Assembly: GCF_002105535.1 (NCBI RefSeq)
Contig: NZ_CP015848.1
Coordinates: 248,001 to 312,000 of the forward strand
Direction of reading: 5' to 3'
Length of the DNA stretch: 64,000 nt
Source of the DNA: Magnetospirillum sp. ME-1
GTDB taxonomy: Bacteria > Pseudomonadota > Alphaproteobacteria > Rhodospirillales > Magnetospirillaceae
Part shown: positions 6,127-54,849 of the stretch, piece after piece
Layout: every line of letters starts with the position of its first letter
Numbering within the stretch: position 1 is the first letter of the stretch
Notes under the pieces: model-generated
Databases searched by the model: none
Seen by the model: only the letters and a program-made list of their open reading frames with translations
Told to the model about the DNA's origin: nothing
Position numbers and translations under genes: made by a program

Positions 6127-6135
6127 CAGAGGAAC

Positions 6136-6765
6136 ATGACCATGGCCGGACGCGGTTGGATCGGTGGCGCCCTGGCGGCGCTTTTGCTGGCGGGCTGTAC
6201 GTCGGGCCTGCCGCCCGCCGCCCAGGTCGATCCCGCCCCGGTGCCGGGCGTGGCGCTGCCCTTCAACGCCCGGGTGATGATCTTCATGGGCGAGAACGAC
6301 CTGAAGCGGAAACTCAGCATCCAGATCACCCGCTACCAGTCCGAGGAGACCAAGGTCCTGGACGGCCGCAGGCTGGCCGAGACCGCCCAGACCCTGCTGG
6401 CCAAGGGCTTCCGGCAGGTGGAGATCAACGATCCCGCCATCCGCCCCCACATCGTGGTGCGCCTGACCGGGCGGCCCGGCTGGAGCAAGCAGGACGGCAC
6501 CTTGAAGCTGGGCTGCGGCATCGACGCCTGGACCGCCGACGGCATTCCGCTGGGCAATTTCGTGGCGCGCTGGGATTCGCCCATGAAGACCGATTACGAT
6601 GCCGATCTGGGGCCGGGCTACGCCCAGTGCCTGAAGAAACCGCTGGACGAGCTGCTGTCCTCGCCCAATCTGGCCCGGCTGGCCGGCGCGGGTTTCCGCG
6701 ACCCCCACCCCAAGGCCACCGAGGAGTGGATGCGCGGCCTGGGGCCCATTCCCGCCTGGAAGTAA
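6136..6765 (+). CDS. Predicted lipoprotein of unknown function
   Basis: 209 residues. The N-terminus has a signal peptide ending in a lipobox (LLLAGC, Cys about 22), so the mature protein should be lipid-anchored, probably in the outer membrane. The body is a mixed alpha/beta domain with no recognised motif. It lies 9 bases after the large secreted repeat protein and 3 bases before the NnrS-like gene, so the three are probably co-transcribed. An in-frame ATG three codons in is an alternative start. Confidence 0.7.
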   Translation: MTMAGRGWIGGALAALLLAGCTSGLPPAAQVDPAPVPGVALPFNARVMIFMGENDLKRKLSIQITRYQSEETKVLDGRRLAETAQTLLAKGFRQVEINDPAIRPHIVVRLTGRPGWSKQDGTLKLGCGIDAWTADGIPLGNFVARWDSPMKTDYDADLGPGYAQCLKKPLDELLSSPNLARLAGAGFRDPHPKATEEWMRGLGPIPAWK

Positions 6766-6768
6766 TCC

Positions 6769-7908: not shown

Positions 7909-7924
7909 TCGGTGTCGGAGGAAC

Positions 7925-8221
7925 ATGATGGCATCGGCCCGCACCCTGCTGATCGAGAAGCGCGAAGAGATCCTGCGCCTCGCCGCCCTGCACGGGGCGG
8001 CGAATGTGCGGGTGTTCGGCTCGGTGGCGCGTGGCGAGGATCGCGAGGACAGCGACATCGACCTGCTGGTCCACATGGAGGACGGGAGGTCGCTGCTGGA
8101 TATGGTCCGCCTGTGGGATCAACTCGGCAGCCTGCTGGGGCGCAAGGTGGACGTGGTCGACGACGAAAGTCTTCATTACGTGATCCGCGACCAAGTCCTG
8201 AACGAGGCCAGGCCGCTGTGA
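7925..8221 (+). CDS. MNT-type nucleotidyltransferase, MntA-like antitoxin
   Basis: 98 residues, a minimal nucleotidyltransferase. The motif FGSVARGEDREDSDIDLLV contains GS, ten residues, then DID, the Mg-binding signature of MNT domains. In MNT/HEPN modules this protein modifies or neutralises a HEPN RNase partner. The following gene overlaps it by 4 bases (GTGA) and is the remnant of such a partner. Two adjacent ATG codons (7925 and 7928) are possible starts after GGAGGAAC. Confidence 0.85.
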   Translation: MMASARTLLIEKREEILRLAALHGAANVRVFGSVARGEDREDSDIDLLVHMEDGRSLLDMVRLWDQLGSLLGRKVDVVDDESLHYVIRDQVLNEARPL

Positions 8222-8397
8222 ACCCACGGGATCGCACCTATCTGATCCATATTCGCGATGCGGTCACGTTGATTCGGCAATACACCGCCATCGGCGAGCA
8301 AGCATTCATGGCGTCTTCCCTTCACCAAGACGCCGTCATGCGTAAGTTCGAGATCGTGGGCGAGGCCCATGTCCTGAGCCTGCTGTCCGAGTCATGA
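8218..8397 (+). pseudogene. Truncated HEPN (DUF86-like) toxin partner
   Basis: 59 residues starting at GTG 8218, overlapping the nucleotidyltransferase stop. The sequence (NPRDRTYLIHIRDAVTLIRQ and KFEIVGEA) matches the first half of HEPN/DUF86 proteins, which are normally near 110 residues. The frame ends at TGA 8395-8397, inside the miaA start (ATGA). The C-terminal helices, including the RNase motif R-x4-6-H and the following Tyr, are missing. The toxin is therefore probably inactive, perhaps after a deletion that joined it to miaA. The alternative is a functional short variant, which seems less likely. Confidence 0.65.
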
Positions 8398-9332
8398 CCC
8401 TGCGCCCAGCCCTCGTCGTCGCCGGTCCCACCGCGTCCGGCAAGTCGGGCCTCGCGCTTGCCGTCGCCCGTGAATTCGACGGCGTGGTGATCAATGCCGA
8501 TTCCATGCAGGTCTATGACGCGCTTCCCCTGCTCACCGCCCGGCCGTCGGTTGAGGACGTGGGAGCGGCGCCGCACCGGCTGTACGGCATCCTTCCGCCG
8601 GAAGAGATCTGTTCGGCGGCCCGCTGGGGCGCGCTGGCGGCGGTGGAGATGGAGGCCGCCTGGGCGGCGGGCAAGCTGCCTATCCTGACGGGGGGCACCG
8701 GGCTTTACCTGCGGGCGGTGATGGAAGGGCTGTCGCCCATTCCCGACATTCCCGAGGGTGTCCGCGCCGCCGCCCGCGCCCTGCTGGCCGAGAAAGGCAA
8801 CGCCACCTTCCACGCCCTGCTGGCCGGCCGCGACCCGGAAATGGCGGCGCGCCTCGATCCGGGCAATTCCCAGCGTCTGGCGCGGGCCTGGGAGGTGCTG
8901 GAGGCCACCGGGCGCTCGCTGGCTCAATGGCAGAACGAGCCCCGTGAAGGCGGCGTCGCGGCCCGCTGGTTCACCCTGGTCCTCGATCCCGAGCGGCCCC
9001 GCCTCTACGCCCAGTGCGAGTCCCGCTTTGCCGCCATGATGGCGGCAGGCGCGCTGGACGAGGTGCGCGAATTCGAATCCCTGCGCCTGGCCGCCGACCT
9101 GCCCATCACCAAGGCCCTGGGACGGCGCGAACTGGCCGCCCATCTGGCGGGCGAGATGGTTCTTGCCGCCGCCATCACCGCCGCGCAACAGGCCACCCGC
9201 AACTACGCCAAGCGCCAGGGGACCTGGTTCCGCCATCAATTGAATGCGTCCCTGACCGTCACAGAGCAATTTTCGGAAAGTTTAAAAGCCACAATCTTTC
9301 TGAAAATTCGCCAACACCTCTTGACCGCTTGA
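8394..9332 (+). CDS. miaA: tRNA dimethylallyltransferase MiaA
   Basis: 312 residues. The P-loop GPTASGKS (11-18) and the DSMQVY motif (36-41) are typical of MiaA, which transfers the dimethylallyl group to A37 of tRNAs reading UNN codons. The tail motif RNYAKRQGTWFR, with the conserved swinging-flap arginines, is also present. The start ATG overlaps the stop of the truncated HEPN gene. In many proteobacteria miaA sits near hfq; here it precedes the ilv genes. Confidence 0.95.
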   Translation: MTLRPALVVAGPTASGKSGLALAVAREFDGVVINADSMQVYDALPLLTARPSVEDVGAAPHRLYGILPPEEICSAARWGALAAVEMEAAWAAGKLPILTGGTGLYLRAVMEGLSPIPDIPEGVRAAARALLAEKGNATFHALLAGRDPEMAARLDPGNSQRLARAWEVLEATGRSLAQWQNEPREGGVAARWFTLVLDPERPRLYAQCESRFAAMMAAGALDEVREFESLRLAADLPITKALGRRELAAHLAGEMVLAAAITAAQQATRNYAKRQGTWFRHQLNASLTVTEQFSESLKATIFLKIRQHLLTA

Positions 9333-9336
9333 AGAC

Positions 9337-9405
9337 ATGCCGCTAGGTTGTCCGCCCGCGCCGCAGTGCAGCAGCGCGCTTGCCTGCCTGTTCGGTGGGC
9401 GATGA
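9337..9405 (+). other. Possible leader peptide ORF upstream of ilvB
   Basis: A 22-codon ORF (ATG CCG CTA GGT TGT..., stop TGA 9403-9405) lies in the 129-base leader between miaA and ilvB and carries four Leu and three Cys codons. It is followed by a GCCGGC-7-GCCGGC hairpin (9415-9433). The arrangement recalls an attenuator, but Ile and Val codons are absent and no U-run follows the hairpin, so this is tentative. Confidence 0.25.
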
Positions 9406-9414
9406 GAAGACCCT

Positions 9415-9433
9415 GCCGGCCTCTCGTGCCGGC
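9415..9433 (+). promoter_or_regulatory. Hairpin in the ilvB leader
   Basis: Two GCCGGC arms (9415-9420 and 9428-9433) with a 7-base loop form a stable hairpin 28 bases before the ilvB start. It could regulate ilvBN expression as part of an attenuator or processing site. No terminator-like T-run is present. Confidence 0.35.
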
Positions 9434-9461
9434 GATAACGACTTACAGACAAGGTGCTGAG

Positions 9462-11228
9462 ATGGTGCATCACGATACGTTGACCGGAGCGGAAATCCTC
9501 CTCAAGGCCCTGGTCGACCAGGGCGTAGAGGTCATTTTCGGGTATCCCGGCGGCGCCGTACTGCCCATCTATGACGAGCTGTTCAAGCAGAACCGCCTGC
9601 GCCACGTGCTGGTCCGCCACGAGCAGGCCGCCGTTCACGCCGCCGAGGGCTATGCGCGCTCCACCGGTAAGGTGGGCTGCGTGCTGGTGACCTCGGGGCC
9701 CGGCGCCACCAACGCGGTGACCGGTCTGGCCGACGCGCTGTGCGATTCGGTGCCGCTGGTCTGCCTGACGGGGCAGGTGCCCACCCACCTGATCGGCAAC
9801 GACGCCTTCCAGGAAGCCGACATCACCGGCATCACCCGGCCGTGCACCAAGCACAATTATCTGGTGAAGGACGTCAACGACCTGGCGCGTACCGTGCACG
9901 AGGCCTTCCACGTGGCGCGTTCCGGCCGCCCCGGCCCGGTGCTGGTCGACCTGCCCAAGGACGTGGTCCAGGCCAAGGGCGAGTACCAGACCCCGTCCAA
10001 GGTCAAGTCCAAGTACAAGCCCCAGGTCAAGGGCGACCTGAAGGCCATCGAAAAGGCCGTCGAGATGATCGCCCACGCCAAGAAGCCCATCTTCTACGTG
10101 GGCGGCGGCGTGGTGAATTCCGGCCCGGCCGCCTGTCAGCTGCTGACCCAGTTCGTGCGCATGACCGGCTATCCCTGCACGCTGACCCTGATGGGCCTGG
10201 GCGCCTTCCCCGGCTCGGATCCGCTGTTCTTAGGGATGCTGGGCATGCACGGCACGGTCGAGGCCAACATGGCCATGCACGATTGCGACCTGATGATCAA
10301 CATCGGCGCCCGCTTCGACGACCGCGTCACCGGCAAGCTGGACGGTTTTTCGCCCAAGTCCAAGAAGATCCACGTGGACATCGACCCCAGCTCCATCAAC
10401 AAGAACGTGGCGGTCGACCTGCCCATCGTCGGCGATTGCGCCCACGTGCTGGAAGACATGATCAAGGTGTGGAAGGCCAAGCAGGCCCGCGTCGATGAAA
10501 AGGCGCTGAAGGCCTGGTGGGCCAAGATCGACCAGTGGCGGGGCACCAACTGCCTGTCCTTCGAGAACTCCAACAAGATCATCAAGCCGCAATACGCCAT
10601 CCAGCGGCTGTACGAGATGACCCGCCACCGCAATCCCTATTTCTGCACCGAAGTGGGCCAGCATCAGATGTGGGCGGCGCAGCACCTGCGCTTCGACCTG
10701 CCGCTGCACTGGCTGACCTCGGGCGGTCTGGGCACCATGGGCTATGGCCTGCCTTCCGCCATGGGCGTGCAGATGGCCCACCCCGACGCGCTGGTCATCA
10801 ACATCGCCGGCGAAGCCTCGATCCAGATGAACATCCAGGAGATGGCCACCCTGGTGCAGCACCGCCTGCCGGTGAAGATCGTCATCCTCAACAACCAGTA
10901 TCTCGGCATGGTCCGCCAGTGGCAGGAACTGATCCACGGCGGCCGCTATTCCGAGAGCCACATGATCCACCACCCGGACTTCGTCAAGCTGGCCGAGGCG
11001 TTCGGCGCCGTGGGCCTGCGCGCCGAGAAGCCCTCCGAGGTGGACGGCGCCATCAAGGAGATGATCGCCGTCGATCGTCCCGTGATCCTGGAACTGCGGA
11101 CCGACGCGTCGGAAAACGTGTTCCCCATGATCATGCCCGGCATGGCCCATAACGAGATGGTGCTGGGGCCGGAGGACAAGGGCCGCGACAAGCCGGGCTC
11201 GGAACAAGACGGCATGGTTCTGGTGTAA
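9462..11228 (+). CDS. ilvB: Acetolactate synthase, large (catalytic) subunit
   Basis: 588 residues from ATG 9462 (LTGAEILLKALVDQGVEVIF, YPGGAVLPIYDEL). It is a ThDP/FAD enzyme that condenses two pyruvates, or pyruvate and 2-oxobutyrate, at the first common step of Val/Leu/Ile synthesis. The ThDP-activating Glu is in VRHEQAAVHAAEGYA. The metal-binding motif reads GEAS rather than the usual GD(G/A)S, followed by LNNQYLGMVRQW; I believe this Glu form is common in alphaproteobacterial enzymes. An upstream in-frame start at 9348 would add 38 unconserved residues. ilvN follows by 14 bases. Confidence 0.95.
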   Translation: MVHHDTLTGAEILLKALVDQGVEVIFGYPGGAVLPIYDELFKQNRLRHVLVRHEQAAVHAAEGYARSTGKVGCVLVTSGPGATNAVTGLADALCDSVPLVCLTGQVPTHLIGNDAFQEADITGITRPCTKHNYLVKDVNDLARTVHEAFHVARSGRPGPVLVDLPKDVVQAKGEYQTPSKVKSKYKPQVKGDLKAIEKAVEMIAHAKKPIFYVGGGVVNSGPAACQLLTQFVRMTGYPCTLTLMGLGAFPGSDPLFLGMLGMHGTVEANMAMHDCDLMINIGARFDDRVTGKLDGFSPKSKKIHVDIDPSSINKNVAVDLPIVGDCAHVLEDMIKVWKAKQARVDEKALKAWWAKIDQWRGTNCLSFENSNKIIKPQYAIQRLYEMTRHRNPYFCTEVGQHQMWAAQHLRFDLPLHWLTSGGLGTMGYGLPSAMGVQMAHPDALVINIAGEASIQMNIQEMATLVQHRLPVKIVILNNQYLGMVRQWQELIHGGRYSESHMIHHPDFVKLAEAFGAVGLRAEKPSEVDGAIKEMIAVDRPVILELRTDASENVFPMIMPGMAHNEMVLGPEDKGRDKPGSEQDGMVLV

Positions 11229-11242
11229 GGGGGATCTGAGAA

Positions 11243-12831
<1,589 letters not shown>

Positions 12832-12855
12832 GGCCGGCCTCCGGTCGGACGAAAA

Positions 12856-12885
12856 GGCCCCGGCGGGACACCGCCGGGGCTTTTT
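12856..12885 (+). terminator. Rho-independent terminator after ilvC
   Basis: A 10-bp GC stem (GCCCCGGCGG / CCGCCGGGGC, loop GACA) followed by TTTTT, 25 bases after the ilvC stop. It closes the ilvBNC transcript before the toxin-antitoxin pair. Confidence 0.9.
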
Positions 12886-12921
12886 GCGTCATCGCCGGAT
12901 TTGCGCAAGAGACCGGCCCCA

Positions 12922-12966
12922 TTGGACATTTGCGCCAAATGCACATATAATCAGTGCGTTTGGCGC
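12922..12966 (+). promoter_or_regulatory. Promoter with 13-bp inverted-repeat operator for the RES/Xre pair
   Basis: A -35 TTGGAC (12922-12927) and a -10 TATAAT (12946-12951) are spaced by 18 bases. The -10 lies exactly between two 13-base arms, GCGCCAAATGCAC (12932-12944) and GTGCGTTTGGCGC (12954-12966), inverted with one mismatch. The layout indicates autoregulation: the Xre-type antitoxin would bind the arms and block the -10. The Shine-Dalgarno GGAG and the ATG at 12978 follow directly. Confidence 0.8.
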
Positions 12967-12977
12967 GGAGCGATCTT

Positions 12978-13520
12978 ATGGATACCACAACCAAAGCCAC
13001 GGCATTGCTCGGCTTGAGATTGCGCCTCGGCGAAGACGTCGAGGTTCCCGACGCAACCAGTAAAATAATAATAACACGTTATAATATGGTGCCAGAGCAT
13101 ATCCCTGGCGCAGGTTATGATGGCCCATGGTCGTCCTACGCCAGCCACGCCCATGACAAACATTCACTTATTGATGTTATCAGAGTCGGCTTCCCGATCG
13201 GCACCATTCAGAACCTTATTGATAGCGGTCGCCTCAGCATGGTCGAGATCGACCGGGTCGTACTGCCGCGCAAGACGCTGGCCAACCGCAAGAAGATTGG
13301 CACCCTGACCGCCGAGCAGTCGGACCGCCTGCTGCGCGTGGCTCGCGTCATCGCGGCGGCGGAAGAGACATTCGGTTCGCCGCAGAAGGCGGATATATGG
13401 CTGCGGCGGCCGAGTGCGGCGCTCGATGATGAAGCACCACTTGATCTGCTTGACACCGAGGAGGGGGCGCGAGAGGTCGAAAGCCTGCTGACCCGGATTG
13501 CCCATGGAATCAGCGCCTGA
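12978..13520 (+). CDS. Xre/MbcA/ParS-type antitoxin of a RES system
   Basis: 180 residues. The C-terminal half (EQSDRLLRVARVIAAAEETF, then WLRRPSAALDDEAPLDLLD) matches the DUF2384/ParS toxin-binding domain of RES antitoxins. The middle part (HSLIDVIRVGFPIGTIQNL) fits the Xre-like DNA-binding region. It neutralises the RES toxin encoded by the overlapping next gene and should repress its own promoter. An AT-rich patch (13060-13090) in the N-terminal part contrasts with the flanks. The start at 12978 has GGAG 7 bases upstream. Confidence 0.88.
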   Translation: MDTTTKATALLGLRLRLGEDVEVPDATSKIIITRYNMVPEHIPGAGYDGPWSSYASHAHDKHSLIDVIRVGFPIGTIQNLIDSGRLSMVEIDRVVLPRKTLANRKKIGTLTAEQSDRLLRVARVIAAAEETFGSPQKADIWLRRPSAALDDEAPLDLLDTEEGAREVESLLTRIAHGISA

Positions 13521-13954
13521 TGCTCTCGGGATGGCGCATTTGCCGCCGCCCCTTCGCAGATCTATCCGGTGAGGGAGCGAGACAGGTCGGCGGCCGGTGG
13601 AACACGCCGGGCCAGCCCATGCTCTATACGGCCGCGACCCCGGAACTGGCGGCCCTGGAGGTCCGTGTCCATCTGGATCTGGCCCCTGATCTCATTCCCG
13701 ATGATTATGTGCTGATGCGCGTCGATCTTGGTGGCCTGGCCATCGAGACCGTGACCGCCATACCCGTCGATCCGGCTGCTTTTGGCGACCGATGGCTGGC
13801 CGAACGGCGGACGCCCGTGCTCCGGGTCCCGTCCGCCATCATCGCCGAATCCAGCAACCTCCTGATCAATCCCCTCCATCCAGATGGCCCTGGCCGCATG
13901 GGCCCCGTCCGAGACTTCACCTTTGATGCGCGGCTCTGGCTGCCGCTACGGTAA
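13520..13954 (+). CDS. RES-domain toxin (NAD+-degrading)
   Basis: 144 residues. The RES signature is visible: Arg and Trp in GGRWNTPG, Tyr in MLYTA, Glu in ALEVRVHL, and Asn in LLINPLHP. RES toxins of this family (MbcT, Res) degrade NAD+ by phosphorolysis or hydrolysis. The start ATG overlaps the antitoxin stop (TGATG), so the two are translationally coupled. The domain looks complete, so the toxin is probably active. Confidence 0.9.
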   Translation: MLSGWRICRRPFADLSGEGARQVGGRWNTPGQPMLYTAATPELAALEVRVHLDLAPDLIPDDYVLMRVDLGGLAIETVTAIPVDPAAFGDRWLAERRTPVLRVPSAIIAESSNLLINPLHPDGPGRMGPVRDFTFDARLWLPLR

Positions 13955-45283: not shown

Positions 45284-45313
45284 TTGATCTTTTCGGCTTT
45301 CGCCAAACCCAGA

Positions 45314-45330
45314 TTAACGCTTGGAGAACT
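45314..45330 (-). repeat. att site, left copy
   Basis: TTAACGCTTGGAGAACT; minus strand reads ...FSKR-stop, as in the rpsI C-terminus. It differs from the right copy at one base, the third position of the last sense codon (Arg), so it is the old chromosomal end of rpsI or a slightly diverged element copy. Confidence 0.85.
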
Positions 45331-45594
45331 TACTAGTCGAAGCATATCTTATAGAATCAATATGTTATATTAGGATTTTTTTCCTTGTGTCGAAAATGTA
45401 AAATTTTCCAAAATCGATGCATCACCTAAATAATAAGCCGATTTTCCGCTCATACAGGAGCGTTGTCGATTTTAAGCTTAAACGGTGCGGGCACGCGCTA
45501 AATCACGCTGCATGAGCTTTAAAACGCGATGCCGGGCGAAAAAAGTAAAGGAGGGACAAAGCCCTCCTTTTGAAAAAGCTAACGATGTAGCGGT
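45331..45594. other. AT-rich left end of the island
   Basis: No gene seen. The stretch is strongly AT-rich (45340-45480) and ends in a terminator for the DUF6641-like gene at 45547-45570. Integrase arm-type sites could lie here, but no clear repeat was found. Confidence 0.5.
45547..45570 (-). terminator. Terminator after the DUF6641-like gene
   Basis: AAAGGAGGG / CCCTCCTTT stem with a 6-base loop, followed on the minus strand by a T-rich run. It lies 24 bases past the stop codon at 45595. Confidence 0.85.
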
Positions 45595-46050
45595 CTACTT
45601 CACGGTCATGCGCTTCCGCGCTTCCGTGGCGGCGGCTTCCAGCACCTTGTCCAGTTCACCGGCGATCACCGCTTCACGGACCTGGTTCAACACGGTGCGG
45701 ACAGCTTCCAGCGACTTCCCAGCCGCAATGGACGGCTTGCCCTTCGCCAGTTCCAGCGGCTTGTTGGCATACCGGATGGTGACGAAGAACTCGCCGTTCT
45801 GTTCAAACCACCACGGACGGACGTCGATTTCCTTGGACAAGCGGTTGCGCTGGCCGCTCTCGTCCTTCACATAGGTCTTCTTGCCGATGGTGTAGTGGGT
45901 GGTTCCCTGGATATGGGCATCCACGGCGGCGATCTGGTGGTTGAGGTTGACCACGAACTTGCCGCGAGCACGGTCAATGGTGCTCACCGTATTCCGGGTG
46001 TTCTTCGGGGCCTCGACATTGGACAGGGCCAGGGTCTTGAGAATGGACAT
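45595..46050 (-). CDS. DUF6641-like phage/island protein
   Basis: 151 residues. The N-terminus (MSILKTLALSNVE), the central VRPWWFEQNGEFFVTIRYA and the LELAKGKPSIAAGKSLEA segment agree with DUF6641 proteins, small proteins of phages and genomic islands with no assigned function. No catalytic motif. ATG 46050 has GGAG 7 bases upstream. The gene is the leftmost of the island. The family call is from memory of the motif pattern. Confidence 0.65.
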   Translation of the reverse strand: MSILKTLALSNVEAPKNTRNTVSTIDRARGKFVVNLNHQIAAVDAHIQGTTHYTIGKKTYVKDESGQRNRLSKEIDVRPWWFEQNGEFFVTIRYANKPLELAKGKPSIAAGKSLEAVRTVLNQVREAVIAGELDKVLEAAATEARKRMTVK

Positions 46051-46153
46051 GATGTTGCTCCGACAGCGTTGAATAATGCTGTTGGCAACGTCACCCCTTT
46101 TTCAGCGCAGGTCTCCCCGGTTCGTCCTAAATATGTTGAAAGGGGGAACGACC

Positions 46154-46345
46154 ATGACCGACGACGCTTGCTTTGAATTTTTGAACGACACGCCAATTCC
46201 AACCATCCTGGACAACGACCAGTTCGTTGGGGATTTGGTTGGGATGCGGATCAAGGTGATGCTTAAGCATCCAATCGACGGCGCGGTAAACGGTCCAATG
46301 ACTGTCTGTAGACAGCGGCCCATAACGTGTCCGACAACCGACTGA
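46154..46345 (+). CDS. Small hypothetical island protein
   Basis: 63 residues from ATG 46154 after an AAGGGGG ribosome site (MTDDACFEFLNDTPIPTILD). No recognised motif. Its 3' part overlaps the end of the convergent DUF6626-like gene by 83 bases, so one of the two may end earlier or this one may be spurious. Confidence 0.4.
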   Translation: MTDDACFEFLNDTPIPTILDNDQFVGDLVGMRIKVMLKHPIDGAVNGPMTVCRQRPITCPTTD

Positions 46346-46580
46346 TCTCGTCCGCCGCGCCCAGCAGATTTCCATGCTTCTTTGCGTGCAGAGCTTGTCC
46401 GGTTTGATGCAGGCGGGATGCTAATGAAGCCAAAGCCTCCAAGCTGATCTCACGTCCCATTGCACGTTGGGTCCTGGCATAGCTGGGGCTCTTCAACAGG
46501 TATCGGGTGGATAGGTCGTCCCAACTGGTTATCAAATTTGCACGTTTCAACGTGTCGTAGGCTTCTTGCAGGTAATTCAT
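46263..46580 (-). CDS. DUF6626-like small protein
   Basis: 105 residues from ATG 46580, with GAGGA 6 bases upstream. The sequence (NYLQEAYDTLKRANLITSWDDLSTRYL, SLEALASLASRLHQTGQ) matches the helical DUF6626-type proteins found in alphaproteobacterial islands. It resembles a short regulator but lacks a clear helix-turn-helix. A leader motif, ATAAATACCC, lies upstream and is shared with the gene at 47272. Confidence 0.6.
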   Translation of the reverse strand: MNYLQEAYDTLKRANLITSWDDLSTRYLLKSPSYARTQRAMGREISLEALASLASRLHQTGQALHAKKHGNLLGAADEISRLSDTLWAAVYRQSLDRLPRRRLDA

Positions 46581-46615
46581 GCGGTTTCCTCGATGTTCAA
46601 CGGTGGCCTTGTTGC

Positions 46616-46648
46616 CACCCTTCAAGGGTATTTATCGAAAAAATGTTC
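46616..46648 (-). promoter_or_regulatory. Leader motif ATAAATACCC/AGGG upstream of DUF6626-like gene
   Basis: On the minus strand ATAAATACCCTTGAAGGGTG; the same ATAAATACCCT...AGGG occurs before the gene at 47272 (around 47651-47671). It could form a small hairpin or be a shared operator. Confidence 0.35.
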
Positions 46649-46789
46649 AATTGGTGTTCATTTTGAGCGGGTTTGCTCTGGTGCGGGCTAAATACATTTA
46701 CGGGTGAATGCATCCGTTATAACCATCCAGTAGATCAAGCTTGCCAACTACGCAGGCCCAATGGCGACAGCAACAACCGGACAACAGAC

Positions 46790-47131
46790 GGGCGCTATAA
46801 GTGAGGGTGGCACGAAGGAACATCGGTTGAAGTTCGTCATTTAACGCTCGTCACAGAGCTCTTCATCCGGTCGCCACCTAAACCGGCACACCACAGTGAT
46901 GCTGTGTTGAAGATGACAAGGGGTGCGCTGTCACGAACGACAACACCCAAGGCTGTTGATGCTTAGAGCGTCCGGTATCATCAGCCCTCCGCGTGACCGT
47001 CGATGCGACGGTGAAGGAACGGGATCACAGGACTGGTAAAGCACGTCACCAGTTTAACGCCCGTGCGATTGCTCCAACTCAAGCTCATTTCATGTGTTGC
47101 CGTCCTTCTCCCCAAAATGGGGGGGAAGGAT
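46790..47131. ncRNA. Candidate structured RNA
   Basis: A chain of hairpins, including one long-range pairing near the start and a GC-rich terminal hairpin. It matches no RNA class I could recognise (no tRNA, tmRNA or RNase P core). Strand unknown; the order of the hairpins and lack of ORFs is the only evidence. Confidence 0.3.
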
Positions 47132-47271
47132 TTCAATCTTAGCTATTTCATGGATACGGAAGCATTCGCTTCCTTGAAAATATTATTAGAAAATAAGGTG
47201 ATGAAAATGACACGGAAGCTGTTTGCTGGCGGCGTAAGCCCGACACGAAACAGCGACGTGAGCTAACCGCA

Positions 47272-47646
47272 TCAGCGGTTGGCTATAGAACGTTTCACAT
47301 AACGAATAGCCATGTCGTCCAGCTTGGCCTGTAGCTTTTCACGTCGAGATATACGGGATTGCATGTCACCGATATCACGTTGCTCGGCTTGTGCATGCCC
47401 CCCATACATCAACCCACGAAATGCTGTCAGTTTTTGCTGTGCTTCCAGGTAACGCTGACGCAACAGCTTCATTCTGTGGACGTGTTTCAATGTCAGCTTT
47501 GGTGGCTGGTTGGGTATAGTCACGACACGTCCAGTTTCGTGATCGACAGACCGGATCGGTTTCTTACGGACTTTCAGCCTGTTGAATTTCACGTCATAGG
47601 ACAGATCGGCGGACAGTGGTGTTTGGATGATTTCATAAAGACGCAT
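47272..47646 (-). CDS. Small basic hypothetical island protein
   Basis: 125 residues from ATG 47646 (MRLYEIIQTPLSADLSYDVK), rich in Arg and Lys (KVRKKPIRSVDHETGR, ISRREKLQAKLDD) with a likely coiled-coil tail. No motif identified. A longer frame from 47835 would overlap the lipoprotein gene and lacks support. A GAGGG ribosome site and the shared ATAAATACCCT motif precede the chosen start. Confidence 0.55.
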   Translation of the reverse strand: MRLYEIIQTPLSADLSYDVKFNRLKVRKKPIRSVDHETGRVVTIPNQPPKLTLKHVHRMKLLRQRYLEAQQKLTAFRGLMYGGHAQAEQRDIGDMQSRISRREKLQAKLDDMAIRYVKRSIANR

Positions 47647-47650
47647 GTTG

Positions 47651-47671
47651 ATGCCCTCGGTTTGAGGGTAT
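47651..47671 (-). promoter_or_regulatory. Leader motif ATAAATACCC/AGGG upstream of the basic protein
   Basis: ATAAATACCCTCAAACCGAGGG on the minus strand, with a CCCTC-GAGGG stem next to the ribosome-binding region. It is the second copy of the motif seen before the DUF6626-like gene. Confidence 0.35.
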
Positions 47672-47776
47672 TTATTCAACTTGAAAGGTGAGAGTGTGTG
47701 AGCATACCTGATCCTACCCGCGCCCCTACATGCTCTACAAGTAAATGCTTCCGTAAATACGCCAAAATTCCATAAG

Positions 47777-48013
47777 TCATCGACTAATTGTGTAGCCGTA
47801 TTTCCTCGCCATGCAATCTCTGGTGTTGTCTCCAACTATAATTGGGTTATTTCCAAAGCCCTGCGCTCTCGTTTTCTGTAATGCGAGAGTCTCGCAGTCG
47901 TACTGGTCGGCTGCTTGCTCAGCAGCTGTCTTATTTGGGTGAGAAATTTTATACGGCGCGCATGCAGCAACTAGAAGCAGGATTACACAGGTTGTCATCA
48001 ATGGCATTTTCAT
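47777..48013 (-). CDS. Small predicted lipoprotein
   Basis: 78 residues from ATG 48013. A signal peptide with a lipobox (VAAC, Cys 18) is followed by about 60 residues with two more Cys (DCETLAL, DCMARKYGY). GGAG lies 8 bases upstream of the start. It belongs to the island and is followed by the basic protein. Function unknown; such small lipoproteins are common island cargo. Confidence 0.6.
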   Translation of the reverse strand: MKMPLMTTCVILLLVAACAPYKISHPNKTAAEQAADQYDCETLALQKTRAQGFGNNPIIVGDNTRDCMARKYGYTISR

Positions 48014-48110
48014 TTACTTGACTCCATATGGGACCGGAAAATTTTTAAGGAAAGTAACTTGGCGCAGCCTTGGTAAAATCCTCTAATCCTGGAAAGCAAG
48101 TGTGTGTCGC

Positions 48111-48599
48111 TTACTTAAATAGGCCATCGCACTGCGGATAAAATTTGAAAAATATATCTACATACTTTAAGTCGGCGATGGTAGCGGTGGCATAATATGA
48201 CTTCTTGCCGTTATTGCTCTCGATATGTATTTCAGAAGAATATGGAACACTGCCGACGTAGCCACCATAGCTATTCTTTGCGTTAACCTCGCCGCAGGCG
48301 GAAAATACATTTTCCACACCAGTTTCTCCGACAAAGTAATGTTTGAACCTTGCGGACTCAGGGTCTTTAAGCTTGCCTCGTAAAGAATCCTCAATTGCTT
48401 TCTGAATTTCCATCGACATCTGCATTTTATGGGAGACAACATACCGTGCAGTACTTTCTCGTGCAGCCTGCTTTTCCGCCTCCTCTGCCTGTCTTCTGGC
48501 AGCAGCCTGTTGAGCATACACATCCGATTGATTGCGGTGTGCGCAGGATGTTAAGGCTATGCACGCAATTGACAGAAGGACGATTTGACGGATCAACAT
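48111..48599 (-). CDS. Predicted lipoprotein with a conserved CGEVNAKN motif
   Basis: 162 residues from ATG 48599. Signal peptide with lipobox (LTSC), a charged helical stretch (about 30-60) and a globular domain with KLKDPESARFKHYFVG and CGEVNAKNSYGGYVG, a motif repeatedly seen in small hypothetical proteins of proteobacteria. The GGAGG site sits very close to this ATG, so a start at 48608 or at the next TTG is possible. Confidence 0.6.
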   Translation of the reverse strand: MLIRQIVLLSIACIALTSCAHRNQSDVYAQQAAARRQAEEAEKQAARESTARYVVSHKMQMSMEIQKAIEDSLRGKLKDPESARFKHYFVGETGVENVFSACGEVNAKNSYGGYVGSVPYSSEIHIESNNGKKSYYATATIADLKYVDIFFKFYPQCDGLFK

Positions 48600-48802
48600 C
48601 ACCTCCATTAAACCCGGATATCGCTAATTGGCAATCTATCCGCCCCATAGTTACGGAAGATTGTCCCAATTTCAACCGCGAAAGTTGAGATGGTATGGCG
48701 GCAGAGATTGTTACTGCAAAGCCACGGATTGAATAGGGCTACTGCCTTTAGTCACGGCCTGATCAGCCCTCACGTTTTCCTTAGTGCCCTTAAGCTTCTT
48801 CA

Positions 48803-49486
48803 TTAGTAGTTACCATCATTGGGAGCGCCATGGATCAGGAAATCTCGATCTTTGATTTCCCAGCAATGCTTGCGAGTGTGTCGATTCATAATTTTGCTCA
48901 GGATGAAAGCAGAATCTCGAATACTAAAATACTTGCCAGGTATCGGAGATTTCATGCTGTCTGGAACATCCCTGACACTGTCCATGTAGCTTTCGATTGC
49001 ATTGAAGCTGCGGGTAATAGAACAAATCTCTTGAATTGCTTCGGGTGGAAAATCGGATAGATTTTCCCATAGTTCATTCAACTGTGGTGGTCTGGTAATG
49101 GAAATCTCTGAGGCGGACACCTTTCCGGGGATGGAGCTTCCTTCAACCACCACCGAGAATATAAGGCGGGGCGCTAGCTGATTCAGCGGATGGTGTTCAA
49201 GCAGGTTGTAGGCCATATGCTCGGCCTTCAAATAAAGATTCAGTCGGCGGCGCTGGTCATCGTTGCGCGCCCGCTCCCAAGCTTGTTCTACCGATGCCAT
49301 AGCTCCCCGGTAAGCCAAGGCTCCGGCAATGAGCGCCAGTATCCCGGCGAACAAAGTCGCCAATCCTTGGTCAAGTGGTAGTTGCATCCATTTTGGCAAC
49401 CATCTAGCCAAGCCGTCGGATGTTAACATAACGCCAATGGCAAGGGTCAAAGCAGATAGAATATATGGTATTCGGCTCGTGCTCAT
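48803..49486 (-). CDS. Hypothetical membrane protein
   Basis: 227 residues from ATG 49486, with GGAGGG upstream. Two hydrophobic segments near the N-terminus (IPYILSALTLAIGVMLTS and LATLFAGILALIAGALAY) are followed by a charged cytoplasmic domain. No family recognised. Island cargo with AT-rich codons. Confidence 0.6.
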   Translation of the reverse strand: MSTSRIPYILSALTLAIGVMLTSDGLARWLPKWMQLPLDQGLATLFAGILALIAGALAYRGAMASVEQAWERARNDDQRRRLNLYLKAEHMAYNLLEHHPLNQLAPRLIFSVVVEGSSIPGKVSASEISITRPPQLNELWENLSDFPPEAIQEICSITRSFNAIESYMDSVRDVPDSMKSPIPGKYFSIRDSAFILSKIMNRHTRKHCWEIKDRDFLIHGAPNDGNY

Positions 49487-49695
49487 TAGCCCTCCCTGGC
49501 ATGGTAGGGATTTCAAGAAAGCTATTCTTCAGGGTTGCTGCCGCGATAATAAAATTTATTTGGCAGCCTCATCTCCAAGCCAAAGTGCCTGGGCTTTGTA
49601 AGGTTATCTAATTCCAAAACCATAACCAAGCGCGGATTTCCGCCATTTTCAAAGCCCGATATCGGGGAGACCTCGGCAAAAGGTTATGTGACACT

Positions 49696-49726
49696 ACCCA
49701 TAGAATGAAAACATAACATTATGGGT
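49696..49726. repeat. 7-bp inverted repeat beside the short recombinase
   Basis: ACCCATA (49696-49702) and TATGGGT (49720-49726), perfectly inverted with 17 bases between. It lies immediately before the recombinase start (49734) and may be its operator or a recombination half-site pair. Confidence 0.5.
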
Positions 49727-49733
49727 GTTCGTC

Positions 49734-50303
49734 ATGTCGCAAGCCAAAGTCCTGTCCGAAGCCGAGATGAAGCGCGTGCTGGCTGTGGTCGCCCAGCACG
49801 GCGTTCTTTCCACCCGTAATCGCCTTGCTGTGTTGCTGTCGCACTGGGCGGGCATGCGGGCCGGTGAAATCGCGGCCTTAAAAATTATGGACGTCGTTAA
49901 TGAAGGCGGTGCGGTTCGTGATCGCATCCATCTCGCTGCCAACCAAACCAAGGGCAAGCGTGGCCGCACGGTGTTCATCAACAGCAAGCTCCAGCGCGAG
50001 ATCGCTCGTAACCTTGAACAACGTGAATGGACGGACGAACGCAAGCCGCTGATCCGCAGCCAAAAGGGCGGACACTTCACGCCGACCACGATGGTGATGC
50101 TGTTCCGCCGCATCTACGATGAAGCGGGTTTGACGGATGCACGCTCACACAGCGGGCGTCGGTCCTATTTGACGACGCTGGCGAACAAGGGTGTGTCCGT
50201 GTTCGTCCTTCAACAACTGGCGGGACACCGGAGCATTCAAACCACCCAGCGTTACGTCACGGTCAACGAAGAGATGATGGTAAAAGCCGCTGAATTGGCA
50301 TGA
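49734..50303 (+). CDS. Short tyrosine recombinase (catalytic domain only)
   Basis: 189 residues. The catalytic set is visible: Arg in WAGMRAGEIAAL, Lys in NQTKGKRGR, His-x-x-Arg as HSGRRSYLTTLA, His in LAGHRSIQTTQ and Tyr in RYVTVNEE. The N-terminal arm/core-binding domain is missing, so its length is that of FimB/FimE-type invertases. It may act on the small inverted repeat upstream or on another local site. It is convergent with the DpdA-like gene (3 bases apart). Confidence 0.85.
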   Translation: MSQAKVLSEAEMKRVLAVVAQHGVLSTRNRLAVLLSHWAGMRAGEIAALKIMDVVNEGGAVRDRIHLAANQTKGKRGRTVFINSKLQREIARNLEQREWTDERKPLIRSQKGGHFTPTTMVMLFRRIYDEAGLTDARSHSGRRSYLTTLANKGVSVFVLQQLAGHRSIQTTQRYVTVNEEMMVKAAELA

Positions 50304-50306
50304 TAG

Positions 50307-51761
50307 CTACTCCCGGAACGGATAGAAAATAACTTCCAGTTCATTCGCACTGTAACGCGCCAGTTCACGGCTTCTGTTTCGTGGTCCCAACGCAATGCAC
50401 GTTGAAAATAGCTGTGCCGCCTTAGCGACGTGATCGAGGTAGTCCTTACGTTTCAATCCGACGAGGTGCTCGCTGTCCTGTATTCCTTCCGCCAACTTTA
50501 TCAGCCGCCCTAGATTTCTCACGTCGTCTTTTACCGTGTGCCTGTAAACGCCTTCGGCCTCGTCCAAGGCACTCAGCAAGTGCTCTCGGAATCTAGCTTG
50601 ATGGATAGCTCCCGCACGATCTGCACGAAGATTTGCATCCTTCATGGCTTCCGTCATCGCCCATATGTTTTGGGCCATAACCATGCACTGGGCCAAATAG
50701 TCCCCAGGTCGCAAGTCATCCCAGCAAACTCCTTCTTTTCCATACCCCATGATCGGACTTTCAGCCGGGACACGGGCATTGTAAGGGGGCATGCCTTTAC
50801 CCGCGTTGACCGACACCATGCGGAACAAGTTTTCATCATGCAATTGCTCGTGGCCCGTAAACATCGTCCAATTCGTCATACCCGAGAATGCGTTGGACGC
50901 ATCGAAGGTGATGGTGATGTTCGGGTTTACATGGTGTCGGAGCAACTTCTGTATGTGGCTGAACAACACAGCGTGATGGCCTGTGCCGACTTTAAAAAAG
51001 TGTAGGATCTTCTCACCCTTCGCCAACTGTCCGTCGTCAATCATTTGAGCAAGTATATAAAGCAACAAGTCGATTCGCTTGGACATGCCGCCGCCAAAGC
51101 CCCAGCCAGCATGGGGGTAGTCCTTCATGGCGCCGTAGTATTTCAACACCGTCTCTTCGTCGGTGCCCTGTAGAATCACGATGAGTTTTGTGCTCGGTTG
51201 CTTTCGCTTGAATTGCTCATCCACATTGAACATTTGCTGTTGAAAGCACTTGTCGATGTTCTGTGTGGTGTATCCGGTCCCAAAGTAGGGATGGCCGGGA
51301 TTCTTTTTTCCAGGGTCCAGGGCATAGAGCGGAATGTCGAGAATGGTTGCCCAGTCAGCAATCCCCTCTTGCCATTCCAAGTTTCGCCGGATCATGTCCC
51401 TCGTCTTGTCACCGCGCTCGGACCAGTCGAAGTCCTTAAACACGCCGCTGTTCGTGGCGATTTGAAAGGCTCCGCTGTCAGCTACGATTCGTGCAAAGGA
51501 CGGACGGTCATACAATGCACGGAATGTCTTGCGGCTCTTGGCTTCATCCCAGATTCCATGCCCCGCGCTAAACAAGAAGAACGGGTAAAAGAACTCGCCG
51601 TTGTCGGCATCAAACGGATTCAGTTCACCGATGTTGTTCAGCCAATTGGGCATAGTGCCCCGTTGACGGAGAGCACTTAGGCTTTCCTTGCTGATGAATT
51701 TTGCAAATCCATCGTTCATGCTCGGTAGAAAAACGGCGTGTTCGTTGCCAGTGGGTATCAT
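50307..51761 (-). CDS. TGT-like protein, possible DpdA-type 7-deazaguanine transglycosylase
   Basis: 484 residues. It reads as a tRNA-guanine transglycosylase fold: DSGAFQ (95-100) matches the DSGGFQ loop with the catalytic Asp95; GFGGGMSK (221-228) matches the glycine loop; KVGTG (257-261) matches the MGVG strand; and TFDASN (285-290) matches the FDCV strand with the nucleophile Asp287. No Cys-x-Cys-x-x-Cys zinc site of classical TGT is seen. Because it lies in a mobile island, DpdA-like DNA modification is likelier than tRNA modification, but this is an inference. It is preceded by an unknown protein 9 bases upstream, and the two are probably one transcription unit. Confidence 0.6.
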   Translation of the reverse strand: MIPTGNEHAVFLPSMNDGFAKFISKESLSALRQRGTMPNWLNNIGELNPFDADNGEFFYPFFLFSAGHGIWDEAKSRKTFRALYDRPSFARIVADSGAFQIATNSGVFKDFDWSERGDKTRDMIRRNLEWQEGIADWATILDIPLYALDPGKKNPGHPYFGTGYTTQNIDKCFQQQMFNVDEQFKRKQPSTKLIVILQGTDEETVLKYYGAMKDYPHAGWGFGGGMSKRIDLLLYILAQMIDDGQLAKGEKILHFFKVGTGHHAVLFSHIQKLLRHHVNPNITITFDASNAFSGMTNWTMFTGHEQLHDENLFRMVSVNAGKGMPPYNARVPAESPIMGYGKEGVCWDDLRPGDYLAQCMVMAQNIWAMTEAMKDANLRADRAGAIHQARFREHLLSALDEAEGVYRHTVKDDVRNLGRLIKLAEGIQDSEHLVGLKRKDYLDHVAKAAQLFSTCIALGPRNRSRELARYSANELEVIFYPFRE

Positions 51762-51770
51762 CCCGGCACA

Positions 51771-53264
51771 CTATTCCCCAATCTTGAACAATGTGGAGGG
51801 CTTCTTGCCTTCCTTAACAGCCAATTGCGCTGTCCAAGCTACATAATCGGATACAGCAACAAACTCGGCACCTGCTGGACAGCTTCGTTGTTTCAGCGTG
51901 TTCGCCCCCTTCACCAACTTGCTCAACAGCGTGCTTCCAACACCTTTCCGAATGGGTGCCTTGTGGCTGGCGTCCGTGGAGAAATCTGTTTCGGTATCCT
52001 TGTTCCGTTCCGCCACCTTCTTTGCGTCATCAACGGTAATGTCGATCTCAGCCGACCATTTTGTGCTTTCATTGAATTCAGCAATAGGACCGGCAGGAAC
52101 AACGGCCAGTGGCAACGTAATCTCACCATCAGTCTTTGTTGCCGCAGCTGGCACCCGGAATTCCCCACTTTGAGCTTTGCCCTTGTTTTGCACCGTCAAG
52201 GTGCCCTCAACGCTACCGTCAACAGGCTTCACGACGATACCGTTTGCACTAGCCTCCCAGGTCCACAGCTTCTTGCTCTTCAACCCCTTCAATGCGGCGG
52301 CAAGTGTGACACGGGTGGCCTTGTCGATGGCAGACTGGCCCATTGGCAAGTACGGGATAGGGCCGAACGATCCGACAATGACAACGGATGCTGTTGTTCC
52401 AGGCTCAACAATTTTCACCCGGCAACCGCTCGCGTCATTGGTGATGATCGCAACAGCCTTGGTGCCTTTAATGCCGCCCATCATGCTCAAGATGCGGTCC
52501 AACTCCGGCGCATTCGTTCCGGTTGGGGTTGGCAACAAGCGGACAAGCCTTTGAGAAACAGCTTCGGATTGATCATTGGCCAAACCGATCGGTATCACGG
52601 TCCCGTTCTCGTCAATTTCCACATACATGGTGTGCTTACCGGGCTTGATTCCGTGCCGCCCCATGTCTTGGATGGATATTGTTTGGTCCCCAAATCCAAA
52701 TTGTTGGCGTAGCTGGCTCACCGCCGTTTGAAGCTGTTCCTCAAACCGAGCTTTCAGTGCCTTCTCTTGCTCGGGTGTAAGGTCGCTTTCGGAGGTGGAT
52801 GGATGACGATTGCGGTATGCGTCAACGGCCTTGTCCACACCACCCAGCTTGTCCAGCCAACCAACAAAATCTTTGGCCGCGACATTGTCCTCCTTGGCCA
52901 AAGCAAACATTGTCGCGTATTTGTTGACGCGAGAATCGTCCACAACCCAGTGGGATTTTCCATCCTCAGTCGCCATAACCCCAGTAGCCAGTTTTACCGG
53001 CAATATGAATGGATTGATCGGCTGGCCTTTGTAGGTTTCACGGACGATGATTCCGTTGTTCGCACAAAACTTTGTTAGGCCACTACCCTTTTCCAGCGCG
53101 GTCAAACAAAGATCGTAGATCGCGGCATAGGCCGCTCGGGATGCGGCATGACTGGTGCGGATAGCATCACAAGCCGCTATCAGCTTGTCCTTCAGCGAGA
53201 TCGGTATGTCTTTGAGATCAACCGGCGACGCAACCGTCTTCTCCGCAACATTCGTGCTGGTCAT
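51771..53264 (-). CDS. Unknown 497-residue protein paired with the TGT-like gene
   Basis: 497 residues from ATG 53264 (MTSTNVAEKTVAS). The N-terminal region (about 20-110) is helical; about 170-200 is a charged coiled coil (SDLTPEQEKALKARFEEQLQ); the middle and C-terminal regions are beta-rich (HGIKPGKHTMYVEIDENGTV, DGEITLPLAVVPAGP). No nuclease, ATPase or ParB motif was recognised and no transmembrane segment is seen. It ends 9 bases before the TGT-like gene, so a shared function is likely. An in-frame ATG at 53285 is possible. Confidence 0.6.
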   Translation of the reverse strand: MTSTNVAEKTVASPVDLKDIPISLKDKLIAACDAIRTSHAASRAAYAAIYDLCLTALEKGSGLTKFCANNGIIVRETYKGQPINPFILPVKLATGVMATEDGKSHWVVDDSRVNKYATMFALAKEDNVAAKDFVGWLDKLGGVDKAVDAYRNRHPSTSESDLTPEQEKALKARFEEQLQTAVSQLRQQFGFGDQTISIQDMGRHGIKPGKHTMYVEIDENGTVIPIGLANDQSEAVSQRLVRLLPTPTGTNAPELDRILSMMGGIKGTKAVAIITNDASGCRVKIVEPGTTASVVIVGSFGPIPYLPMGQSAIDKATRVTLAAALKGLKSKKLWTWEASANGIVVKPVDGSVEGTLTVQNKGKAQSGEFRVPAAATKTDGEITLPLAVVPAGPIAEFNESTKWSAEIDITVDDAKKVAERNKDTETDFSTDASHKAPIRKGVGSTLLSKLVKGANTLKQRSCPAGAEFVAVSDYVAWTAQLAVKEGKKPSTLFKIGE

Positions 53265-53362
53265 GCTATTCCCCGCAAGCTGCATTTTGGGCTCACGGGA
53301 TTATGCCAGGGTAATGACCGACGGAACAGCACCCTCAAACTTCAATCTCGCTTAAGTGAGAT

Positions 53363-54691
53363 TCAAGCTTCATTCTCCGTCGGGGCCGTCAACAGCCTCT
53401 CAAGGGTTTGGGTCAAAGCAACCGAAGCATCTTGATCGGATGAGGCCCAGACGTTTTCGAAATGATTGTCCGGCACAAAAGATAGCTCATCCTCTTTGTG
53501 TTCGTTTGCAATGTGGTCGTAGTGCTCTTGAATTTGTTTAACGCTCGATCCGGTATTGCGTGCAACGTCTTCAATACTCATGCCTGCCAGCAGGCGATAG
53601 GTTATGAAGCTGTGACGAAGGCTGTAGAGAGTTCGATTGCGGCCATGAGGGTCTTTCAACAAGCCTGCTTCTTCTAAAACTTGGCAAAATAGCTTGTGCG
53701 ACTGGGCCATCGGTTCGCCGTTGTATCCGGCAAATACATATTCGGTCTTTCTATCGACGGGTTTGTCCGGGTGTCGCTGGTGGCGAAGAATGGCCGCATC
53801 CGAACTATACTGAATCGCGGTTTCAAGGGGCACGCGATCACGGTCTTTGTATCCGGTTTTGGTGGCTTTTGGGATTATGACCTTTAGTCGGCCCTTCTCT
53901 GTGACGCCCAGGTTTATCCAGCGCAAATTAAAGACTTCATTTGGCCGCAAACCGCTGCTCATCAAAAAGCCGACCAAGCAATAAAGCATTTTTCGTTGAT
54001 GTTGATGGAATGCGTTGTATCCGCCCTCTTTCCACTTTTGCATGTGGGCGCGGAGTTTCTCCCATTCATACATCTCGAAATGTGGACGGCGTTCAGGCAG
54101 CGGATCGGAATCGTCCTTATTTATAGTGATCAGCGGCATGTGGGGAATGTAGCTGTTCACCTTCATGTATTTGAACATTTGAGTGAGCAACGACTTTTCC
54201 ATATCCAGCGTCTTCTTGCTTGGATGAATGGCCGCATTTGCAGGAAGTTTACGCGTTGATCCCGGCCCTTCGGTGTAGTAGGTCCGTCTAAAAAGCCAAT
54301 ATGCCGCTATCTTGCGTTCGTCGATGTCTTCAATGAAAGAATCACCAAAATGCGAGAGAAAATAACGCTCTCCCGTACCCTTATGAAGTTTATGGCGGTG
54401 GATGCTTAGTGTTTTCTGGACGTGCGGCAACCACTCGCTTTGCCAAAATGTTCGGAACGTCCGACGTTGCAGTGGTAGCTTTTGCCGCACCCTGAAGCTG
54501 AGGTCGTCATAGAGGTCGCGGGCAAAGATCAGTGCGTCTTCATAGTCCGTCGTTCCACAGGAGCGGACCACATAGCCCTTGTAGCCACGAATATTGAGAC
54601 GGCATTGCCATATGGGCTTTTTGACGCCGCCACGGCGGTAGAGCTTGCCGCGTCCGCCCAGTATGTCTTTTTCGTCGCTGTAGAACGACAT
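53363..54691 (-). CDS. Full-length tyrosine integrase of the island
   Basis: 442 residues. The N-terminal part (about 1-210) carries the arm/core-binding domains; the catalytic domain has SSGLRPNEVFNLRW (Arg), ATKTGYKDRDRVP (Lys region), LYSLRHSFITYRLLAG (His-x-x-Arg region) and QIQEHYDH (nucleophile Tyr). It should integrate at the rpsI end next to it (142 bases). It starts at ATG 54691 directly downstream of a terminator hairpin, on the same strand as rpsI. Confidence 0.9.
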   Translation of the reverse strand: MSFYSDEKDILGGRGKLYRRGGVKKPIWQCRLNIRGYKGYVVRSCGTTDYEDALIFARDLYDDLSFRVRQKLPLQRRTFRTFWQSEWLPHVQKTLSIHRHKLHKGTGERYFLSHFGDSFIEDIDERKIAAYWLFRRTYYTEGPGSTRKLPANAAIHPSKKTLDMEKSLLTQMFKYMKVNSYIPHMPLITINKDDSDPLPERRPHFEMYEWEKLRAHMQKWKEGGYNAFHQHQRKMLYCLVGFLMSSGLRPNEVFNLRWINLGVTEKGRLKVIIPKATKTGYKDRDRVPLETAIQYSSDAAILRHQRHPDKPVDRKTEYVFAGYNGEPMAQSHKLFCQVLEEAGLLKDPHGRNRTLYSLRHSFITYRLLAGMSIEDVARNTGSSVKQIQEHYDHIANEHKEDELSFVPDNHFENVWASSDQDASVALTQTLERLLTAPTENEA

Positions 54692-54693
54692 GC

Positions 54694-54744
54694 AAAAAGC
54701 CCTCGGGTGTGAAGCATTTGTAAAAAATGCTAACCCGAGGGCTT
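54694..54744 (-). terminator. Terminator between rpsI and the integrase
   Basis: A 12-bp stem AAGCCCTCGGGT / ACCCGAGGGCTT (54697-54708 and 54733-54744) with a nested 7-bp AGCATTT/AAATGCT stem. On the minus strand it ends in a T-tract. It replaces the native rpsI terminator now lost beyond the island and shields the integrase from ribosomal transcription. Confidence 0.8.
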
Positions 54745-54753
54745 AATGTTTTC

Positions 54754-54788
54754 AACCGCTTGTGAAGAATCCGTGAAGCGGTTTTTTT
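54754..54788 (+). terminator. Opposite-direction hairpin near the right att
   Basis: AACCGCTT / AAGCGGTT stem (54754-54761 and 54776-54783), followed by a T-tract on the plus strand. It would stop transcripts heading out of the island into rpsI. The AACCGnTT arms also recur at 54805 and 54826. Confidence 0.6.
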
Positions 54789-54833
54789 AGCCAATTTCAA
54801 GCGTAACCGTTTGAAAAATATGAATAACCGGTT
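54754..54833. repeat. AACCGnTT repeats beside the right att
   Basis: AACCGCTT (54754-54761), AACCGTTT (54805-54812) and AACCGGTT (54826-54833), plus an inverted AAGCGGTT (54776-54783). These may be arm-type or accessory binding sites of the integrase. No equivalents were found at the left end. Confidence 0.4.
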
Positions 54834-54849
54834 TAGCGCTTGGAGAACT
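54833..54849 (-). repeat. att site, right copy (end of rpsI)
   Basis: TTAGCGCTTGGAGAACT, the last codons of rpsI on the minus strand (FSKR-stop). Pairs with 45314-45330 with one mismatch. Confidence 0.85.

Follow-up and report, generated by a model that had tools for sequence, protein, structure and literature searches.

Bacterial dpd islands as published carry dpdA-C and often dpdD-K, and some of them occur without dpdC and the restriction operon (PMC11888242). DpdB, an ATPase, has been reported to be dispensable in some clusters (PMC12839542). Among phages, both DpdA and DpdA2 have been described, and the DNA of Vibrio phage nt-1 contains dPreQ0 (PMC6884629). Here we compare these systems with a pair of genes from Magnetospirillum sp. 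ME-1, located in a stretch of 64,000 nucleotides (NZ_CP015848.1, positions 248,001 to 312,000) that we refer to as the window. We propose that the pair encodes a diverged DpdA-like base-exchange enzyme which, supplied with host preQ0 and assisted by a partner in a DpdB-like role, probably inserts preQ0 or a close 7-deazaguanine into DNA, and we put the probability of this reading at roughly 0.7. In window coordinates, the features are:

45309..54849: genomic island, about 9.5 kb, integrated at the 3' end of rpsI (uS9), marked by a drop in GC, repeats and an empty site
45309..45330: attL repeat CCAGATTAACGCTTGGAGAACT (direct repeat D1), where the left-flank alignment to the empty site ends
45595..49516, minus strand: five small island ORFs
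49725..50303, plus strand: short tyrosine recombinase, 192 aa, its gene converging with that of the DpdA-like protein (phrog_216 integrase, 5e-42)
50307..51761, minus strand: DpdA-like protein with a TGT-type fold, 484 aa, with profile and fold matches to TGT and relatives beside preQ0 genes
51771..53264, minus strand: partner protein, 497 aa, an orphan in direct searches, with an hhalign match to a family of 540-640 aa
53363..54691, minus strand: tyrosine integrase, 442 aa, next to attR (Pfam Phage_integrase, 4e-10; phrog_1 integrase, 1e-32)
54828..54849: attR repeat CCGGTTTAGCGCTTGGAGAACT (direct repeat D1), overlapping the rpsI stop codon

Like the canonical bacterial dpd islands (dpdA-C with dpdD-K), this locus is a chromosomal mobile island in which a TGT-fold protein has an adjacent companion. 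Unlike them, it belongs to a host in whose genome we found no protein of the DndB/DpdB family, the island holds no recognisable DpdB, DpdC or restriction gene of the dpdD-K kind, the DpdA is of a different subfamily, and the partner matches no known family. The DpdA2 group of phage nt-1 (YP_008125322) shares with our protein the TGT-like fold and motifs of the DSGG(L/F)Q and SYDSS types in the same order, and its genes have preQ0-synthesis neighbours; however, the similarity is remote only (against nt-1 DpdA2: hhalign probability 91, E 1.2e-6; Foldseek E 3e-8), and the window gene differs in its setting, a bacterial island that lacks que genes, and in having a large partner. The uncharacterised proteins of PA5oct-like Pseudomonas jumbo phages, of Phosso and of 2.275.O belong to the same family by tblastn and carry the same motifs, but their genes are phage genes, which in PA5oct and 2.275.O lie near que genes and in PA5oct and many viral contigs near a GT-B-like protein.

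A mobile island at rpsI

The island has a GC content of about 0.5, compared with about 0.68 outside, and the site that it occupies is empty in a relative (locus L248 of genome G016), where both flanks are joined, overlapping each other by 17 bp, and nothing is inserted between them; the alignment of the right flank to this empty site begins at 54833. The direct repeats at both ends, which have the 3' end of rpsI in common, and the empty site confirm the mobile island that had been described from the sequence, and the 442-aa integrase probably inserted it. The 192-aa recombinase has counterparts at 95-96% identity next to DpdA-like clusters in two other genomes (loci L017 in G009 and L018 in G003). 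Short recombinases of this kind, consisting of the catalytic domain only, recur in Magnetospirillum genomes, often, though not in every case, near DpdA-like genes.

The five small ORFs encode proteins of 151, 120, 187, 165 and 237 aa, one matching DUF6626 above the cut-off, one DUF6641 below the cut-off and one phrog_2320; the remaining two gave no useful match in Pfam or PHROGs. With the same libraries, no restriction or modification enzyme, nuclease or helicase was recognised among the island ORFs other than the pair, and PADLOC gave no hit for either gene of the pair. Both genes of the pair were found again as full-length, open frames on the minus strand with the 9-base gap reported earlier, and they are probably co-transcribed; an alternative start of the partner at 53285 would lengthen it to 504 aa. 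Rfam gave no match, and neither promoter nor terminator signals rose above chance.

The DpdA-like protein and its viral relatives

As a single query, the 484-aa protein finds nothing in Pfam, NCBIfam or PADLOC and only chance-level rows in PHROGs and the PDB, and single-sequence scans of viral sequences and of genome contigs returned no relatives. Homologues of the ORF at E 1e-24 to 1e-46 do occur in phages, viral contigs and related bacteria, and the relatives obtained by tblastn include PA5oct-like jumbo phages (E 2e-24), Sinorhizobium phage Phosso (2e-15), Vibrio phage 2.275.O (2e-15), one Azospirillum plasmid and 7 of 59 related genomes. The best identity to any relative in the tblastn search of these 59 genomes is about 32%, and the protein has no close relative. 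When a profile of 15 relatives (A1) was searched against the PDB, only TGTs appeared at E < 0.05 (best 1.9e-4); no part of A1 was sufficiently conserved to serve for a scan. The Pfam TGT family (PF01702) does not match the 484-aa protein and matches 3 of the 15 relatives weakly.

The AlphaFold model, built from a 64-sequence alignment (pLDDT 79.8, pTM 0.82), is a predicted (beta/alpha)8 barrel of the TGT type. Its best 50 Foldseek matches in the PDB are all TGTs, and VIA-align superposes it on RNA-bound human TGT with Z 21.8 and on Zymomonas TGT with preQ0 at a Z of about 21, as expected if the earlier assignment to the TGT family is right. The motifs stand at the positions and in the order first read from the letters, DSGAFQ with Asp95, GWGFGGGMSK at 219-228, KVGTG at 257-261 and TFDAS with Asp287, and Asp95, Asp142, Gly199, Gly219 and Asp287 are invariant among the 64 sequences of the DpdA-like family. 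In TGT, the catalytic roles of Asp102 and Asp280 and the base-binding role of Asp156 (Zymomonas numbers) are well established. The PDB profile alignment pairs Asp95 with TGT Asp102 and Asp142 with TGT Asp156, and Asp287 aligns with the nucleophile of the tRNA TGT of the host, the equivalent of TGT Asp280; Asp95 and Asp287 are thus in the active-site columns, as predicted.

The protein thus resembles tRNA TGTs (PF01702) of bacteria and eukaryotes in its barrel (Z about 21) and in the equivalents of Asp102, Asp156 and Asp280, but differs from them in matching no Pfam TGT model, in its longer helical C-terminus, in an identity of about 14% and in the zinc site. The classical zinc cysteines, whose absence had been pointed out before, are indeed missing: cysteines occur only at 172, 346, 359 and 455, with no CxCxxC and no CxCxxC...H after the nucleophile. 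In one Magnetospirillum subgroup of the family (L019 9430-10887 and relatives), a cysteine cluster of the form CGxDCxxxC...CxxC follows the nucleophile and is perhaps a different metal site. Of 67 columns that are otherwise nearly invariant, the 484-aa protein also deviates at 28, with Ala for Gly98 and Lys for Gly257 among the changes; it retains every catalytic aspartate and the GG loop. Given these deviations and the lack of a close relative, the protein may be weakly active or act on a changed substrate, and the long branch makes the placement of the protein in a tree unsure. Judging from the profiles and the predicted model, the protein is most likely a TGT-superfamily member of a diverged, DpdA2-related DpdA-like family common in large phages; the barrel match, the active-site aspartates and the relatives beside preQ0-synthesis genes all support the DpdA/TGT-like identity first suggested.

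This family is large and mostly viral, with at least 483 stretches in a pattern scan of viral sequences and 123 in a second scan. Genes for preQ0 synthesis are neighbours of family members elsewhere, but not of the gene in the window island. In a set of 61 non-redundant viral loci, folE lies within reach in 33, a QueE-type gene in 10 and a gene for a GT-B-like protein in 31, and folE or queE is present in 26 of the 35 long non-redundant loci (>= 15 kb). In Vibrio phage 2.275.O, genes for QueF, YhhQ, QueC and FolE follow the DpdA-like gene, and in PA5oct the DpdA-like gene is close to DNA polymerase genes. A short contig, L195, bears the label Verrucomicrobia but may be mis-binned; the DpdA-like gene that it carries is close to the Magnetospirillum group.

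The partner protein and related bacterial loci

The 497-aa protein had been said to belong to no recognised family, and direct searches agree: single-protein searches of Pfam, NCBIfam, PADLOC, PHROGs and the PDB returned nothing useful, and no direct homologue turned up among phages, plasmids and viral contigs or in the 385 genomes searched from its class. Folded alone, it reached a pLDDT of 36.6, and the model was not used. At the DpdA-like loci of other Magnetospirillum-group genomes, however, a family of proteins of 540-640 aa is encoded (alignment A6), and hhalign aligned the partner with the nine-member A6 profile at E 5e-5 over 229 co-linear columns and with a three-member profile at E 6e-4; the best of 98 unrelated proteins run as controls against the nine-member profile reached 0.0098. 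Scores of the partner against A6 in hmmsearch are weak, and the genome search with A6 did not recover the window partner. The profile comparison is suggestive, not proof, and marks the partner as a plausible remote member of the A6 family. Strong matches to A6 occur in 5 of 60 genomes, all 5 among the 8 with a DpdA-like gene (Fisher p 1e-5, a value that overstates independence because the genomes are mutually related), and the co-occurrence check proposed at the outset accordingly found the family only where a DpdA-like gene occurs. The partner is fast-evolving and appears to travel with the DpdA-like gene; in the viral loci, no member of the A6 family was found. Two other candidate relations were discarded: a sliding-clamp-like C-terminal domain common to A6 and to a phage gene upstream of dpdA, for which profile searches and comparison came back empty, and a 579-aa neighbour in Azospirillum B510, which has no detectable relation to A6.

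Larger clusters around a DpdA-like gene are found in the two loci that share the recombinase:

L017 (in G009), 6152-13547: larger DpdA-like cluster
L018 (in G003), 5823-13592: larger DpdA-like cluster

Both begin with a radical SAM gene on the opposite strand, a D12 methyltransferase, a 475-aa protein and the DpdA-like gene, and directly downstream of the latter lie genes for PTPS/QueD, a radical SAM protein of the QueE type and FolE; QueC fragments come after FolE in L018 only, and the 192-aa recombinase then follows in both. The 475-aa protein has no direct match to the window partner. In other loci of the Magnetospirillum group, the DpdA-like gene is accompanied by a GT-like protein, a histidine kinase with a response regulator, and a phosphoesterase. 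The claim that a two-gene version would be new survives these comparisons in part. The partner seems to be a real companion, given its plausible place in a family that tracks the DpdA-like gene; on the other hand, related islands carry more (queD, queE, folE, the D12 methyltransferase, the GT-like protein), and reduced dpd islands, those lacking dpdC and the restriction operon, have been published (PMC11888242). In G009 itself, three DpdA-like genes of different subgroups lie within about 115 kb (contig C1, 4.02-4.16 Mb).

Proposed function and its alternatives

Under the reading that we prefer, the 484-aa enzyme would form a covalent enzyme-nucleotide intermediate at selected guanines in DNA, with Asp287 as the nucleophile, Asp95 as the general acid/base and Asp142 binding the base, and would replace the guanine by preQ0 or a close 7-deazaguanine. 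The precursor would be supplied by the queuosine pathway of the host, because que genes are absent from the window island; the host genome encodes QueC and QueD, and preQ0 should therefore be available to the enzyme. The 497-aa partner would most likely work with the enzyme, targeting it to DNA or licensing it, much as DpdB is placed in the canonical bacterial dpd islands, and the resulting mark would protect the island or the host from restriction. The evidence suggests that a Magnetospirillum-type island and large phages have in common a form of DNA modification about which little is known. More tentatively, and at somewhat less than even odds, this may be a distinct 7-deazaguanine DNA-modification system, in which a phage-type DpdA-like enzyme is combined with a new, fast-evolving partner family replacing DpdB, and which small integrative islands have spread among Magnetospirillum-type Alphaproteobacteria, its smallest, two-gene form living on host preQ0.

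TGTs act on tRNA in all kingdoms, and the pair could instead represent a second, diverged guanine transglycosylase for tRNA or another RNA that is carried by a mobile element, as the fold and the best single structural match, an RNA-bound TGT, would allow. We regard this as unlikely, since a full tRNA TGT is already present in the host (E 1e-158), the 484-aa protein lacks the cysteines with which TGT binds zinc, the nearest characterised relation is the DpdA2 of a phage with dPreQ0 in its DNA, and the viral relatives come from large DNA phages, with the DNA polymerase genes close by in PA5oct. Just as improbable, in our view, is that the two genes remain from a larger phage or island cluster such as L017 or L018, have decayed or been neo-functionalised, and no longer make a modified base. 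The queD, queE, folE and GT-like genes of the other loci have been lost from the window island or were never in it, and the changes at nearly invariant columns described above would fit decay; yet the two frames are open over their full length and separated by just 9 bases, the catalytic aspartates and the GG loop have been retained, and supply of preQ0 by the host is probable.

The island may also be a phage satellite or defence element in which the pair marks the island's own DNA so that it survives restriction, while another cargo gene, or the host, attacks unmarked DNA. The integrase and att repeats at rpsI, the small phage-type ORFs, the D12 adenine methyltransferase beside the pair in the two related islands and the precedent of canonical dpd islands, which are restriction-modification systems (PMC12839542, PMC11888242), are all in line with such an element, but the window island holds no recognised nuclease, helicase or restriction component and the pair drew a blank in PADLOC; we consider this explanation less likely than not.

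If the pair modifies DNA, as we propose, bacteria would have a further, non-canonical way of placing 7-deazaguanine in DNA, one whose partner protein lies outside the known Dpd set, and a large family of phage enzymes that lacks annotation would be connected to bacterial islands. The many viral contigs with a DpdA-like gene would thereby gain a likely function where family libraries give no match or weak ones. In PA5oct (L012 7596-10359) and many other viral loci, a GT-B-like protein with a weak Glycos_transf_1 match is often encoded near the DpdA-like gene, and PA5oct additionally has a phosphoribosyltransferase and an epimerase-like protein nearby; further sugar decoration of the base by these neighbours is possible.
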